Origin: Spirochaetes bacterium GWB1_36_13 | Lineage (GTDB): Bacteria; Spirochaetota; GWB1-36-13 | NCBI GenBank assembly: GCA_001829155.1 | Contig: MIAO01000096.1 | Location: forward strand, 1 to 43,083 | Direction: 5' to 3' | Length of the DNA: 43,083 nt | Shown here: piece after piece, positions 20,083 to 39,254 of the stretch | How the letters are laid out: each line of letters begins with the position of its first letter | Position numbering within the stretch: position 1 is the first letter of the stretch | Position numbers and translations under genes: made by a program | The notes under the pieces: model-generated | Told to the model about the DNA's origin: nothing | Database searches by the model: none | Seen by the model: the letters and a program-made list of their open reading frames with translations, nothing else

Positions 20083-21426
20083 ATGAACCTAAAAAAAATA
20101 TTTTCTTTTTTATGTTTCCAAATTGATGAAACGCAAAATAATTTCAGCCTGAAAGATTATGAAGAGTACAGGAAAAAAAAGCTGATCAGTCTTTTTACTT
20201 TTATCTTTTCATTCTATCTTCTTTTTTACAGTTTTATCGATATATTTATTCTGAATCATGTCTTATTCGGAATTTTTCTTTTTACAGCCTTAATATTTGG
20301 TATTCTTAATTTTATTTTTTTTACAAAAAAGATGATTCAAAGAGAAACCGCTTCCAATGTGATTATTTCTTTTTCTTTTGTTATTTTCTCAAGCCGTTTT
20401 TATCAAGGCGGAATTGAAGCTTCAGGGATTTTCTGGATGTTTTTATTCCCGATTTTATCTTTTTTTTTAAAGGGAGGGAAAAAAGGGGTTTTTCTGACAC
20501 TGCTTTTATTTTTTACAAACCTGATTCTCTATTTCTGTTTTCAGGATGAAAATCATCTGAAATATCCTTTAAAATACACTATTATTGCTTTTTCGGTCTA
20601 TCTTTTGTCGGCCGGTTTTTCTTTTTTTTATGAATATTCTTTAAAACAGTATTTTTATTTGATCGAAGTAAAAACCGCAGAGCTTGTCAAATCAAAAAAA
20701 CAAACTGAGGATGCAAGGGAAGAACTTCTTAAAACCAATCAAATCAAAGATAAAATGTTTACAGTCATATCTCATGACCTTCGGGGATCTTTAGGAAGCA
20801 TTAAAAATTTTGTCAGCTATCTGATATCAGACCCTTCCTATGCTCAGGAAAAATTAAGCGATTCTTTGAATCTGATTCTTTTAGGGTGCAATACAACTTA
20901 TGATCTTTTAAATAATCTTTTGGAATGGGCGAAAATGCAGATCAACCGGGTGGAGTATCAGCCGTCTGATTTTTTAATCAATGATTTGATTAAAGACAAT
21001 TTTGCCCAAAATCAAGCTGCTTCCATCTCGAAATCAATCAGTCTGGTTTTTGAGAACTCTCAAAATTTCTGGGTTTATGCGGATAAAAATATGACTGATC
21101 TTATTTTAAGAAATCTGATTATGAATGCGCTGAAATTTACTCCTCACGGAGGAAGCGTCAAAGTTGAGGTTCAGGAAAAAGAAGAGGGTGTAGAAGTGGC
21201 AGTGCGGGATACGGGGATTGGAATGTCTCCTGAAATGATTGATAAATTGACTCGAAATGAAAATTGTGAGAGCCATCTGGGAACGGATGGGGAAAAAGGG
21301 GCAGGAATAGGGCTTTCTCTTTCTAAAGAGTGTGCGGAAAAAAATAGAAGCAGGCTTTTGATAGAGAGTGAAAAAGGAAAGGGAACCCGTATTTTCTTTT
21401 TATTAAAAAAATCATCTTATGTATAG
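20083..21426 (+). CDS. Membrane sensor histidine kinase
   Basis: ~5-6 TM segments; MFTVISHDLRGSLGSIKNFVSYL H-box; DTGIGMSPEM, GAGIGLSLSKECAEK. Confidence 0.88.
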   Translation: MNLKKIFSFLCFQIDETQNNFSLKDYEEYRKKKLISLFTFIFSFYLLFYSFIDIFILNHVLFGIFLFTALIFGILNFIFFTKKMIQRETASNVIISFSFVIFSSRFYQGGIEASGIFWMFLFPILSFFLKGGKKGVFLTLLLFFTNLILYFCFQDENHLKYPLKYTIIAFSVYLLSAGFSFFYEYSLKQYFYLIEVKTAELVKSKKQTEDAREELLKTNQIKDKMFTVISHDLRGSLGSIKNFVSYLISDPSYAQEKLSDSLNLILLGCNTTYDLLNNLLEWAKMQINRVEYQPSDFLINDLIKDNFAQNQAASISKSISLVFENSQNFWVYADKNMTDLILRNLIMNALKFTPHGGSVKVEVQEKEEGVEVAVRDTGIGMSPEMIDKLTRNENCESHLGTDGEKGAGIGLSLSKECAEKNRSRLLIESEKGKGTRIFFLLKKSSYV

Positions 21427-21445
21427 CTAAAAAGAGGAGAAACAA

Positions 21446-23761
21446 ATGGAAAAAGCAGTTTTAATTACCCAGTGTCTTCAAAATGATTTTGTCGAACCCA
21501 TTGATAAATATGATCCGCTGCCCAACATGCTTCATATAGGCTACAGTGAGGCGAAAAGGCTGATGGGGGAAAATCTTTCCGATTCTCCGGTTCATTCGGT
21601 GATTGACTGGGCGTACCGGATTTCTGAAAAAGACCTTGCTATTATTCATATCAGGGACTGGCACGATTCTTCAGATCATCTTCAGGAAGAGCATTTAACC
21701 CTTTTTGGGGAACACTGCCTGAAAAACACAAGGGGAGCGGAATTTGTTTTTAAAAATCAAATGCTTCCGGGAAGAAAAGATTTTATTGTCAATGCTTCCG
21801 GAATCAATGATTTTATCGATACCAATCTTGAGGAAATCCTTTCAGGCTATCAAAATCAAAAAATGAAAATCGGGCTGATGGGAGTCTGGACCGAGGCAAA
21901 AATCCTTTTTCTCTCTTATGAATTAAAATCCCGTTATCCTTTTTTTGAGATCGGGCTTTGCAGCGCATTGACCGCCAGTTCGTCCCGGGCTACTCATTTT
22001 AATGCTTTGGATCAGATTAAAAACATTCTGGGCATCCGCATCTTTTCATCAGTGGGAGATTTCACCACTTTTCTGGGCAATTCTTTACCAGATATACAAA
22101 CCAAGTTAAAGGGAAGAGAGAATTCTATCCAGATTGACCTCGATCCTCCCTTTTCCATATCGGAAACAGATAAAAAGATTCTGGCCTATCTTTTTAAAGA
22201 CTGCCGGAAAGTGGAACTGAAATCTCTGGACGGCGGTTTTTCAGGGAATCTGGTTTTGAAAGCGAAAAGTACCGATATTTTGGGGCATAAGCAGGTGCCT
22301 ACAGTCATTAAAATCGGGCAGAGAAACTTGATTTCAAAAGAGAGGATGTCTTTTGAAAAAATTCAGGAAGTTATGGGAAACAATGCCCCCAATATCGTGG
22401 ATTCAGTTGAGCTGGAAGACAGGGGAGGGATCAAATACCGTTATGCTTCGATGCTGGATACTCAGGTCAAAACTTTTCAGGATTTTTATGAGCAGGATGG
22501 AAGTCAGTCAAAAATCAGCCAGTTTCTGGATATTGTTTTTAAGGATCATCTGGGGAGGCTTTATGAAGCCAGTGAGTATGAAAAGCTCAATCTTTTAAAT
22601 TATTATGATTTTCAGGCAAAGTATGCTCCGTTTGTGCGGAAAAATGTGGAAGCGGTGATAGAAAAAAAAGCCGGTCAGGAGACAATTGAAATTATTCCGG
22701 GGAAAGTGATTCCCAATGTCTGTTCCTTTTATGAAAAAGACTTGCTGACTTTAAAAGAATATACGGCTGAAACCCATTACATGGCTTATCTTCACGGTGA
22801 TCTCAACGGAAAAAATATTATCATTGATCATCAATCCAATGTCTGGCTGATTGATTTTTTTCATACCCACAGAGGGCATATTTTAAAAGACTTGATTAAA
22901 ATGGAAAATGATATTCTTTATATCTTTACTAAAATCAATTCTTTAGAGGAATTGCAGGAAGGGCTTCTTCTGACAGATAAACTTTTGAATATTCATGATT
23001 TGAAGCCGATTCTTCCAAAAAAGTGGATGGAAGAGTTTAAGTTTCCTCAAATTAAAAAAGCGTTTCTCTCGATTCGAAAGCTGAGATCATTTTACGCTGA
23101 CTTGATTCAGACAGACCGTGATCCCTATCAGATTTATACAGGATTGATGCGTTACGCTATGCATACGCTTTCTTTTGATGAGTCAAACCTGTTTCAAAAA
23201 AAATGGGCGCTTTATACTGGAAGCCTTTGCGCGGAAAAAATTAAAAATTCAATTTATGCTTCAAAAAAGCTGAGGATTGATTTTCTGACTCTTCCTAAAA
23301 GTGCGAAAGGAAAAATCGGGCTGACACTGCTTCCGGGTAGAAAAGACAAAGAGAGGATGATTTACGATGATTTAGAGGTTTTGAAAGAAAATCAGATTAC
23401 CCATATTGTCTGCCTTCTCACAGAAGATGAAATGGTTCGTTTTGGAGTGCCTGATTTAAAAAAACAGTATGCGGAAAAAGGGTTTGAAGTTTATTATTTT
23501 CCTATTCTGGATCAGGGAATTACCGAAAAAGTTTTGACCCATTCGTTATTTGACTGGATAGAGAATGCATTGGAAAATAAAAAAAATATTTTAATTCACT
23601 GTGTAGGCGGATTGGGAAGATCGGGGATGATCGCTGCGGCGTTTTTAAAAAACAGATTCGGGTTTTCACCGGAAGAGGCGATCTCAACGGTAAGGAAAAC
23701 CAGAGGGGAAAGAGCGGTTGAGACTCGATCCCAGGAACAGTTTGTCTATGATTACGATTAA
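21446..23761 (+). CDS. Tripartite fusion: isochorismatase-like domain + APH-like kinase domain + dual-specificity/tyrosine phosphatase
   Basis: N-term LITQCLQNDF and GVWTEAKILF…GLCSALTASSSRATHFNAL; middle LDGGFSGNLVLKAK…VIKIG and HGDLNGKNIIID…LIDF; C-term FPILDQG and HCVGGLGRSGMIAAAF. Confidence 0.8.
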   Translation: MEKAVLITQCLQNDFVEPIDKYDPLPNMLHIGYSEAKRLMGENLSDSPVHSVIDWAYRISEKDLAIIHIRDWHDSSDHLQEEHLTLFGEHCLKNTRGAEFVFKNQMLPGRKDFIVNASGINDFIDTNLEEILSGYQNQKMKIGLMGVWTEAKILFLSYELKSRYPFFEIGLCSALTASSSRATHFNALDQIKNILGIRIFSSVGDFTTFLGNSLPDIQTKLKGRENSIQIDLDPPFSISETDKKILAYLFKDCRKVELKSLDGGFSGNLVLKAKSTDILGHKQVPTVIKIGQRNLISKERMSFEKIQEVMGNNAPNIVDSVELEDRGGIKYRYASMLDTQVKTFQDFYEQDGSQSKISQFLDIVFKDHLGRLYEASEYEKLNLLNYYDFQAKYAPFVRKNVEAVIEKKAGQETIEIIPGKVIPNVCSFYEKDLLTLKEYTAETHYMAYLHGDLNGKNIIIDHQSNVWLIDFFHTHRGHILKDLIKMENDILYIFTKINSLEELQEGLLLTDKLLNIHDLKPILPKKWMEEFKFPQIKKAFLSIRKLRSFYADLIQTDRDPYQIYTGLMRYAMHTLSFDESNLFQKKWALYTGSLCAEKIKNSIYASKKLRIDFLTLPKSAKGKIGLTLLPGRKDKERMIYDDLEVLKENQITHIVCLLTEDEMVRFGVPDLKKQYAEKGFEVYYFPILDQGITEKVLTHSLFDWIENALENKKNILIHCVGGLGRSGMIAAAFLKNRFGFSPEEAISTVRKTRGERAVETRSQEQFVYDYD

Positions 23762-23763
23762 TT

Positions 23764-23792
23764 AAAAAACGCTGTGAGTCAGCGTTTTTTTT
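23764..23792 (+). terminator. Rho-independent terminator
   Basis: AAAACGCTG-TGAGT-CAGCGTTTTTTTT immediately after the fusion gene stop. Confidence 0.85.
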
Positions 23793-36479: not shown

Positions 36480-39254
36480 TTAACCTTTATAAGGTTTGAT
36501 ATCTAAAATTTTAATATGGACATCTTGTCCGCCGATTTCTACATTAATATCCTGATTTTTCTTTCCACCCAGCATTGCTTTTGCAAGTGGAGAATTGTAG
36601 GCCAGAATATGTTTCTCTTCGTTGGTGTCCCAGAAACCAAGAATAGTATAAGATTCTTTTTTAGCGTTTCTTTCTATCTGAACCGTTGTTCCCGGAGTAA
36701 CTTCTTCACCGGAAATCTGACTTAAATCAATAATTTTTGTTTTATCGATCAATTCCTGAAGGAATTTTATCTGATTGTTTAAAGTGCTTTCTTTTTCACG
36801 GGCAGCCTGATACTCGGCATTTTCCCGAAGGTCGCCTTTCTGTCTGGCTTTATCGATTTCAACAACATTTTTCGATTTTTCAATATTGAGTTCTTCGATT
36901 TTTTTTCTTTGTTTATTAAAGCCGTCTTCACTGGACCAGATTATTCTTTCGTCAAGATAATCAATAATAACATGAGAAATTAGATCGTCTTGTGATTTGA
37001 CTTCTTCAACATGCGGAAGTTTCTTTAAAATCTGGCGAATCAGTTCATTTTTTCCTGTTTTTCCTTTGTTGGTGGAAATCAAGCCGGATGAGTTTTTAAT
37101 CAAATGATAAATTTTAACAATATAATCTTCATCCTGATGAGAAACTACAAAATCAATAAAAGAAGTAGGCTCACCCTCTTCCTGATCGATCAATTCTCTG
37201 AAAAGAATATCGGTGGCGGTATTTAAAATATTTTTTGCTTCGGGAGTGGAAATAGAAGGGGTAAACCAGTTGAGTTTTTTCTGGTTCATCAGTTTTCCAA
37301 TGGTATCGATCCGATAAAGAATTTCGATATAGAGATCTTTGAGTGAAAATTGATAGGTTCTGTAATCTCCTTCAATCATTCTCTCAAGGCACCACATGGT
37401 AATATAAGGATTCATCTTGAATTTATTGTGAATTGTATCTTCTACCAGTTCCTTCATATCTTCGGGAGAAAGATGAAGAGAGAGTTTTTCCATGATATGG
37501 GGAGCCAGCTGACCTCGGTCAATCCAGAAAATTTCCTGAAGCACTGTTTCACATTCAGGAAGTTCTTTTTCAATATAATTGATGATTTCTTTTTTATAAT
37601 CAGCTTTATAATTATGGAGAAGGGTTTTAATCAGGTTGTCTTCGTCGTTAAAAATACTGAAGGAATATTCGATTTCCCCGACATATTTTTTATTGGTTCT
37701 GAAAAGTCTTTTTAAAAGAATAAAAGAAATCAGCTGCTCATGAAAATCAAATCTCGGGTTTTGAATCGTATCTTTAAAGTATTGCACCATTTCTTTAAAT
37801 TCATCTGCAAATTCTTCAATTAGGTCGGATTCCTTGATAAATTCCTCATAAATTTTGACCTTATCGTCAAATTTCTTGGTCTGATGGAAGCTGTTGATCA
37901 ATTCTTCTTCGTATGAAAGTTTAATGTCTCTTAAGATGTATTTCGGTCGTCCTTCTTTGATCATACCGATATTGGATTCTTCTTTCAGATAGGTTTTAGC
38001 ATTGTTCCACCACTTGTTCCATTCATTGGTATTAATAATATCCGGTACCAGTTCATCTTTAAAATTGTCGATACTGAGTTCTTTATCAGGAAAACTCTTT
38101 AAAATAGCGACCAGAATTTTCTTCGCTTCTTCTTTGGAATGGATGTTTCCGATTTTCTTTTCTTTTTTCAAGACCCAGATGTGTTCCGGGGTAAGCGGCA
38201 TTAAAGACTTGAGAGCCATGATATAGCTCATTTTATGGTTGATTTTTCCGTCAAAAATCAGATAAAAATCTTCTCCCTTGATTTCCTGAATCTTACCGAT
38301 TCCCCATGTTTTATGGTAAATATAAGAATCCTGATCAAAAAGAATTTCTTTTTCAAATTTTTTGATTGAGTTTTCAATTTTAGATTTAGGATCGTTTAAT
38401 CCTGAATTTTTCATACAAATTTCAAGCTGAGTTGAATTTTTGTATTTTTCACGGTAAAGGTCAATTAATCTGGATCTGATTTTTTGGTTAAAAGGTTCTT
38501 TGACCAGCATGTTTTTGGCAACAAAAATCGCTTCTTCAATTTTTTCGACACCTTCCAGTTCATCCAGAAGGGAAAGCATCAGATTATGGGAAAGTTCTTG
38601 ATTGTTGTCTGCAATAAAAGAAGCTATGTTTTGAAAAAAATGAATTTCTTCGGGGATTTCGCTGACTATTTTTTTCCAGATCGTCTCCAAAAGTGAAAAT
38701 TGTTTGCTTTTAGCGTATCTTCTTAAAGCTGATTTGAAATATTTCAGAGCAAGAACAGGGTCTTTTTTTTCGTAGTATTCAGCCAGTCTTTTTGCCAAAT
38801 CTCCGTTTTCTGTGTCGATGGCAACCAGTTTTTCGAGTATTTCATATTTTTCTTTTTCTTTTTCTTTCTTGAAATTATCATAAATATGGAGAAGAAGTTT
38901 GTAAGCGTAAATGCTTTCTTCATTCTCAATGATTTTATTTAAAATCGTTTCAACGACCGACCATCTTTTATTGTCCTTAAATATTTCAACCAGATGAATT
39001 AATGAGTCCGTATTCTCTTTGTCATCGATTTTATAAGACAAAAGACCGAGAATATAAAGACCTGTAATGCTTTTAGGGGAATTTTTAACAAAATCAAGAG
39101 TAATTTGATGGGCTTCCGTTTCTTTTTTTTCGTTAATAATAGATTTTAATAGATTTTCTAAATCATCAGACTCTTTTTTTCCGAAATTTTCTATAGTAGA
39201 ACGAGTCCATTGTTCTTCTTTTAATTTTTCTTGTAATTCTTTTAAGATTGCCAT
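36480..39254 (-). CDS. greA: Transcription elongation factor GreA with long TPR-like N-terminal extension (spirochaete type)
   Basis: C-term KGDLRENAEYQAAREKESTLNNQIKFLQELIDKTKIID…GTTVQIE…YNSPLAKAMLGGKKNQDINV; ~750-aa helical N-terminus. Confidence 0.92.
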   Translation of the reverse strand: MAILKELQEKLKEEQWTRSTIENFGKKESDDLENLLKSIINEKKETEAHQITLDFVKNSPKSITGLYILGLLSYKIDDKENTDSLIHLVEIFKDNKRWSVVETILNKIIENEESIYAYKLLLHIYDNFKKEKEKEKYEILEKLVAIDTENGDLAKRLAEYYEKKDPVLALKYFKSALRRYAKSKQFSLLETIWKKIVSEIPEEIHFFQNIASFIADNNQELSHNLMLSLLDELEGVEKIEEAIFVAKNMLVKEPFNQKIRSRLIDLYREKYKNSTQLEICMKNSGLNDPKSKIENSIKKFEKEILFDQDSYIYHKTWGIGKIQEIKGEDFYLIFDGKINHKMSYIMALKSLMPLTPEHIWVLKKEKKIGNIHSKEEAKKILVAILKSFPDKELSIDNFKDELVPDIINTNEWNKWWNNAKTYLKEESNIGMIKEGRPKYILRDIKLSYEEELINSFHQTKKFDDKVKIYEEFIKESDLIEEFADEFKEMVQYFKDTIQNPRFDFHEQLISFILLKRLFRTNKKYVGEIEYSFSIFNDEDNLIKTLLHNYKADYKKEIINYIEKELPECETVLQEIFWIDRGQLAPHIMEKLSLHLSPEDMKELVEDTIHNKFKMNPYITMWCLERMIEGDYRTYQFSLKDLYIEILYRIDTIGKLMNQKKLNWFTPSISTPEAKNILNTATDILFRELIDQEEGEPTSFIDFVVSHQDEDYIVKIYHLIKNSSGLISTNKGKTGKNELIRQILKKLPHVEEVKSQDDLISHVIIDYLDERIIWSSEDGFNKQRKKIEELNIEKSKNVVEIDKARQKGDLRENAEYQAAREKESTLNNQIKFLQELIDKTKIIDLSQISGEEVTPGTTVQIERNAKKESYTILGFWDTNEEKHILAYNSPLAKAMLGGKKNQDINVEIGGQDVHIKILDIKPYKG

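Follow-up and report, generated by a model that had tools for sequence, protein, structure and literature searches.

A spirochaetal protein joining a nicotinamidase-like domain, a TCAD9 kinase and a KAP-like phosphatase: a candidate one-chain phosphorylation switch

The window analysed here, meaning the whole 43,083-nucleotide stretch of contig MIAO01000096.1 from Spirochaetes bacterium GWB1_36_13, contains a gene for a 771-residue protein in which a reading of the sequence alone had proposed three fused domains. The gene and the elements around it are as follows.

20083..21426, + strand: gene for a membrane histidine kinase (MASE6-like, HisKA, HATPase_c), 19 bp upstream of the tripartite gene
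21434..21439, + strand: ribosome-binding-site-like GAGGAG, read in the sequence
21446..23761, + strand: tripartite gene, 771 aa, open reading frame with ATG start (Pfam, AlphaFold, Foldseek; orthologues in 28 genomes)
21446..22081, + strand: N-domain, residues 1-212, nicotinamidase/isochorismatase fold
22163..23263, + strand: TCAD9 kinase domain (APH fold), residues 240-606 (Pfam, alignment, AlphaFold, Foldseek)
23270..23755, + strand: KAP/CDKN3-like dual-specificity phosphatase domain, residues 609-770 (Pfam, alignment, Foldseek)
23764..23790, + strand: terminator hairpin with T run (folding -12.6 kcal/mol, z -2.8)

The open reading frame was confirmed as one chain with three domains, each backed by profile searches, AlphaFold and Foldseek, and the motifs quoted in the sequence-only reading were all recovered: GGFSG at residues 263-267, HGDLNGKN at 450-457, FPILDQG (containing D689) and HCVGGLGRS (containing C719 and R725). 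The gene does end at a terminator, as had been proposed; the hairpin was found by folding and was not listed by a terminator pattern scan, probably because the T run merges into the A/T part of the stem. Pfam annotation shows the surroundings in the window to be housekeeping genes. The gene had also been described as following a sensor kinase, which is correct as to the 19-bp gap and shared strand, and the two genes are probably co-transcribed in the window. Elsewhere in the window (36480-39254, - strand) lies a 924-aa GreA/GreB protein in which about 770 residues N-terminal of the GreA part have no Pfam match.

Against Pfam, the 771-aa protein matched TCAD9 (1.3e-58), CDKN3 (6e-16), DSPc (1e-11) and Isochorismatase (2.2e-5). 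The AlphaFold model, built with 24 orthologues as input, had a mean pLDDT of 86.3, and Foldseek searches of the PDB with it retrieved KAP (TMt 0.87), PncA nicotinamidases (TMt about 0.75) and APH(3') (TMt about 0.5-0.57). The profile and structure comparisons suggested at the outset thus support each of the three folds, with the Isochorismatase profile just under its cut-off (25 bits, a weak match, against 27 bits). Invariance of residues was judged on an alignment of the 24 orthologous proteins. Mean column identity was 66% for the N-domain, 60% for the kinase and 53% for the phosphatase. In close pairs where it could be computed, dN/dS was about 0.03-0.17 in all three domains, and all three are under purifying selection.

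The N-domain had been called a cysteine-hydrolase-fold domain. The fold is upheld by Foldseek and by profile matches to 3hb7 (4e-8) and 1ilw (1.5e-6), while the catalytic cysteine is not: the positions of the canonical Asp/Lys/Cys triad hold C10, A117 and K152. The DxQxDF motif reads CLQNDF, which places C10 at the position of the catalytic Asp, and K152 occupies that of the catalytic Cys, both when the domain is aligned with nicotinamidases and cysteine hydrolases of known structure and in an HHalign comparison with spirochaete family members. A117, which is about 90% conserved, corresponds to the catalytic Lys in the alignment to 3hb7 and is the least certain of the triad assignments. Both C10 (codon 21473-21475) and K152 (codon 21899-21901) are invariant across the 24 orthologues, as are D71, H73 and H90, which align to D52, H54 and H71, the metal ligands of the Pyrococcus enzyme. 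By residue correspondence, then, the N-domain has a PncA-type Asp-His-His set, and how C10, K152 and the metal site lie relative to one another is predicted from alignment. Judged by these residues, the domain departs from the canonical cysteine hydrolases. That it is the best-conserved part of the protein despite the lost triad suggests a binding or regulatory role, and the ligand-sensing function first proposed for it remains plausible. In genome G000 (93% complete) the tripartite N-domain is the sole Isochorismatase-family match, so that no canonical nicotinamidase was found there.

The central domain belongs to TCAD9 (Ternary complex associated domain 9, PF19974), scoring 199.7 bits against a gathering cut-off of 40 with both ends of the profile covered. 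Invariant among the 24 orthologues are K289, E304, the GGxSG loop, HGDLNGxN (H450, D452 and N457; codon of D452 22799-22801) and D470, and the domain has the HGDxxxxN motif, later Asp, beta3 Lys, helix-C Glu and APH-like fold of an APH-fold kinase. When modelled alone with AlphaFold (pLDDT 90.9), its nearest folds included APH(3'), the best, as well as ethanolamine kinase and homoserine kinase. Only 12 residues separate D470 from the invariant D482-L483, and there is no long activation loop. The description of an APH-like kinase is therefore sound in motifs and fold, with the family name corrected to TCAD9. This family has been named together with vWA-MoxR-VMAP systems in a figure legend (PMC10910872), and a few active APH-like kinases have been noted among NTP-dependent ternary conflict systems (PMC7159879).

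The C-terminal domain combines an HCX5R loop and a general-acid Asp with a KAP-like fold, and scores 59 bits against PF05706 (cut-off 20.7). D689 (general acid, codon 23510-23512), C719 (nucleophile, 23600-23602) and R725 (23618-23620) are invariant in the 24 orthologues. Its nearest relative is KAP/CDKN3 (31-32% identity, TMt 0.84-0.87). When 72,556 plasmids and 50,697 phages were searched, the phosphatase part alone found relatives, which speaks against these elements as carriers of the tripartite gene. On the Leisingera thetidis plasmid NZ_CP109792.1 (L084:3998-5566) a KAP-like phosphatase region starts a protein annotated as an ADP-ribosylglycohydrolase, with AAA ATPase, WYL, PD-(D/E)XK nuclease and UvrD genes as neighbours.

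The window genome is spirochaetal: the flagellar sheath protein FlaA, not known outside spirochaetes, scored above cut-off in 11 of 11 sampled genomes and in 0 of 14 controls. Across Spirochaetota the tripartite gene was found in 28 of 395 genomes, representing 6 families and 15 genera, always in single copy and at 45-59% identity. Twenty-five carriers gave one full-length match; in one (G069) the match consists of two pieces of a single 819-aa frame, and in two (G200, G206) it is split over contigs. An N-domain profile search returned the same 28 genomes and no free copy, the domains being separated only at contig ends. Moreover, wherever TCAD9 is matched strongly and over its full length in the phylum, the protein is the tripartite fusion; the few weaker matches differ. 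Full-length orthologues across the phylum indicate that the frame did not arise by chance, and the phylogenetic profile shows the architecture to be fixed in these genomes, not a one-off. In the two families examined, presence follows genera (g26, 4/4; g76, 5/5; g85, 3/3; g48, 0/4), and this, together with the single copy, is the pattern of a physiological regulator. A gene tree puts the window copy with those of family f6 (support 93/90), although the window genome is placed in another family, and the one genome of the same order lacks the gene. The grouping and this absence make an old transfer possible.

Twenty orthologue neighbourhoods were clustered and annotated, and no constant neighbour was found; conservation is confined to within genera. 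In genus g26 (4 genomes) a Bat-type operon of MoxR, DUF58 and vWA genes follows the tripartite gene immediately, with no change of strand:

L036:7891-15120: MoxR-DUF58-vWA region beside the tripartite gene (same region in L037, L041 and L042)

In family f30, DUF58 is present in 13/13 carriers against 2/9 non-carriers, and in the phylum as a whole it occurs in 324/394 genomes. It is missing from carriers G055, G069 and G146, which rules out the MoxR/Bat operon as a general partner. The MoxR-type NTPase and vWA partners of a ternary conflict system are absent beside the window gene and were seen only in g26, and a defence-system search with PADLOC gave no match. Other TCAD9 proteins also occur in the phylum. 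Genome G221, which carries the tripartite protein, also encodes a 1330-aa TCAD9-nSTAND1-dCache protein with an intact HGDLNPEN (L098:4129-8121), a canonical conflict-type TCAD9, and a 1513-aa TCAD9-AAA protein (L096:1856-7832) whose gene comes immediately after one with an adenylate/guanylate cyclase domain. A 1295-aa protein resembling this TCAD9-AAA protein is found in G185 (L097).

Because intact opposing active sites have been kept in one chain over long evolution, we suggest that the protein is best read as a self-contained bifunctional switch, in which a kinase and a phosphatase act on one substrate and the N-domain serves as sensor; we give this reading a probability of about 0.48. The APH-fold TCAD9 kinase would phosphorylate the substrate, and the KAP-like phosphatase to which it is fused would remove that phosphate. 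The N-domain, with its metal-site residues kept, would bind a small ligand or report redox state through Cys10, and its sensing would shift the balance between kinase and phosphatase. In favour of such a switch, the catalytic residues of both kinase and phosphatase are invariant in the 24 orthologues, the architecture is fixed and dN/dS is low in all three domains. From the active-site residues both activities may be predicted; that they act on one substrate under the control of an N-domain ligand, we infer. We favour a small molecule over a protein as substrate, given the short stretch after D470, which is as in APH-type kinases. A narrower version, which we regard as doubtful, is a metabolite-gated kinase/phosphatase: a former nicotinamidase, with the metal site kept and the catalytic Asp and Cys now Cys and Lys, would sense a pyridine or carboxamide metabolite (for example an NAD precursor), or redox state through Cys10-Lys152, and thereby set a phospho-signal not yet described for spirochaetes.

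Several observations weigh against the switch. No conserved neighbour points to a substrate. The nearest relative of the phosphatase, KAP, is known to act on a protein (CDK2), and kinase-domain sequence profiles also reach the protein kinases GCN2 and RIO2 weakly. The last two would instead fit an auto-regulated protein kinase, in which the phosphatase domain dephosphorylates the attached kinase or the protein target of that kinase, so that the output is protein phosphorylation: the substrate of KAP is itself a kinase. We consider this somewhat unlikely, since the fold is nearest to small-molecule kinases and the short segment after D470 leaves no room for a typical activation loop.

The invariance of C10 and K152 might alternatively reflect an active site that has been rebuilt. 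In that case the protein would be a trifunctional metabolic enzyme, the N-domain working with Cys10, Lys152 and a metal, and the three domains acting on one metabolite in sequence or in opposition. The invariance of C10, K152, D71, H73 and H90 goes beyond purely structural need and the N-domain is the best-conserved part, which speaks for such chemistry. Against it, the canonical Asp, Lys and Cys have all been replaced and no pathway genes recur beside the tripartite gene, and we judge this explanation unlikely.

Membership of a TCAD9-type NTP-dependent conflict (defence) system is improbable. The kinase does fall in PF19974, which has been linked to vWA-MoxR-VMAP systems, a TCAD9-nSTAND1-dCache fusion occurs as well in G221, and in g26 the gene directly precedes a MoxR-DUF58-vWA operon; but the protein itself has no STAND, vWA or effector domain, it is single-copy and steady within genera, its surroundings in the window are housekeeping, PADLOC found nothing, and the three carriers without DUF58 show that the MoxR/Bat link is not general. 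Finally, it is highly improbable that the protein is the output module of the upstream histidine kinase, which is close by and on the same strand in the window, as no histidine kinase adjoins the orthologues with an annotated upstream gene, so that it is not a conserved partner, and the protein has no receiver domain.

If the bifunctional switch is correct, a single gene would supply sensor, writer and eraser of a phosphorylation signal, their order unchanged in several spirochaete families. TCAD9, so far chiefly a name attached to conflict systems, would gain a link to ordinary regulation in the cell, and the protein would offer a compact system for testing directly how a ligand controls opposing activities and how a hydrolase is reused as a sensor.

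Opposing phosphorylation and dephosphorylation on one polypeptide are found in PFK-2/FBPase-2, HPr kinase/phosphorylase and AceK. The logic is alike, whereas the domains are probably unrelated and include no sensing pseudo-nicotinamidase; the window protein is thus a known logic realised with a new combination of domains. The open-access papers searched yielded neither a characterised protein with this architecture nor any paper joining nicotinamidase-like, TCAD9 and KAP-like domains, in keeping with what had been supposed from the sequence. Taken singly, each domain has known relatives. PncA nicotinamidases and isochorismatase-like hydrolases (PDB 1ilw, 6a8l, 3o90, 3hb7) have the fold and the three metal-ligand positions in common with the N-domain, but possess the catalytic Asp, Lys and Cys where the window protein has Cys10, Ala117 and Lys152. 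The kinase domain is shared with other TCAD9 family members, but here it is flanked by a nicotinamidase-like domain and a phosphatase and is not part of a ternary system, whereas other Spirochaetota TCAD9 proteins are fused to nSTAND1-dCache or AAA domains. APH(3') and other APH-fold small-molecule kinases have the same fold (TMt 0.5-0.57), HGDxxxxN, later Asp and short post-Asp segment, but at 12-16% identity they give no ground for calling the window protein a resistance enzyme. The NCBI hypothetical protein PRK12361 (NF009025), which has a dual-specificity-phosphatase-like region, matches the phosphatase region locally (1.4e-10, 40 bits against a cut-off of 505) and does not match the kinase or N-domain. 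NMA1982 is a bacterial phosphatase whose closest structural relative is human CDKN3; it has been studied as an enzyme in its own right (PMC10716126), and its loop is CX4R whereas that of the window phosphatase is CX5R. Human KAP/CDKN3 (PDB 1fpz, 1fq1) has the same fold and the same catalytic Cys, Arg and Asp as the window phosphatase, but is a separate protein, whereas in the spirochaetes this phosphatase is fused to a kinase.
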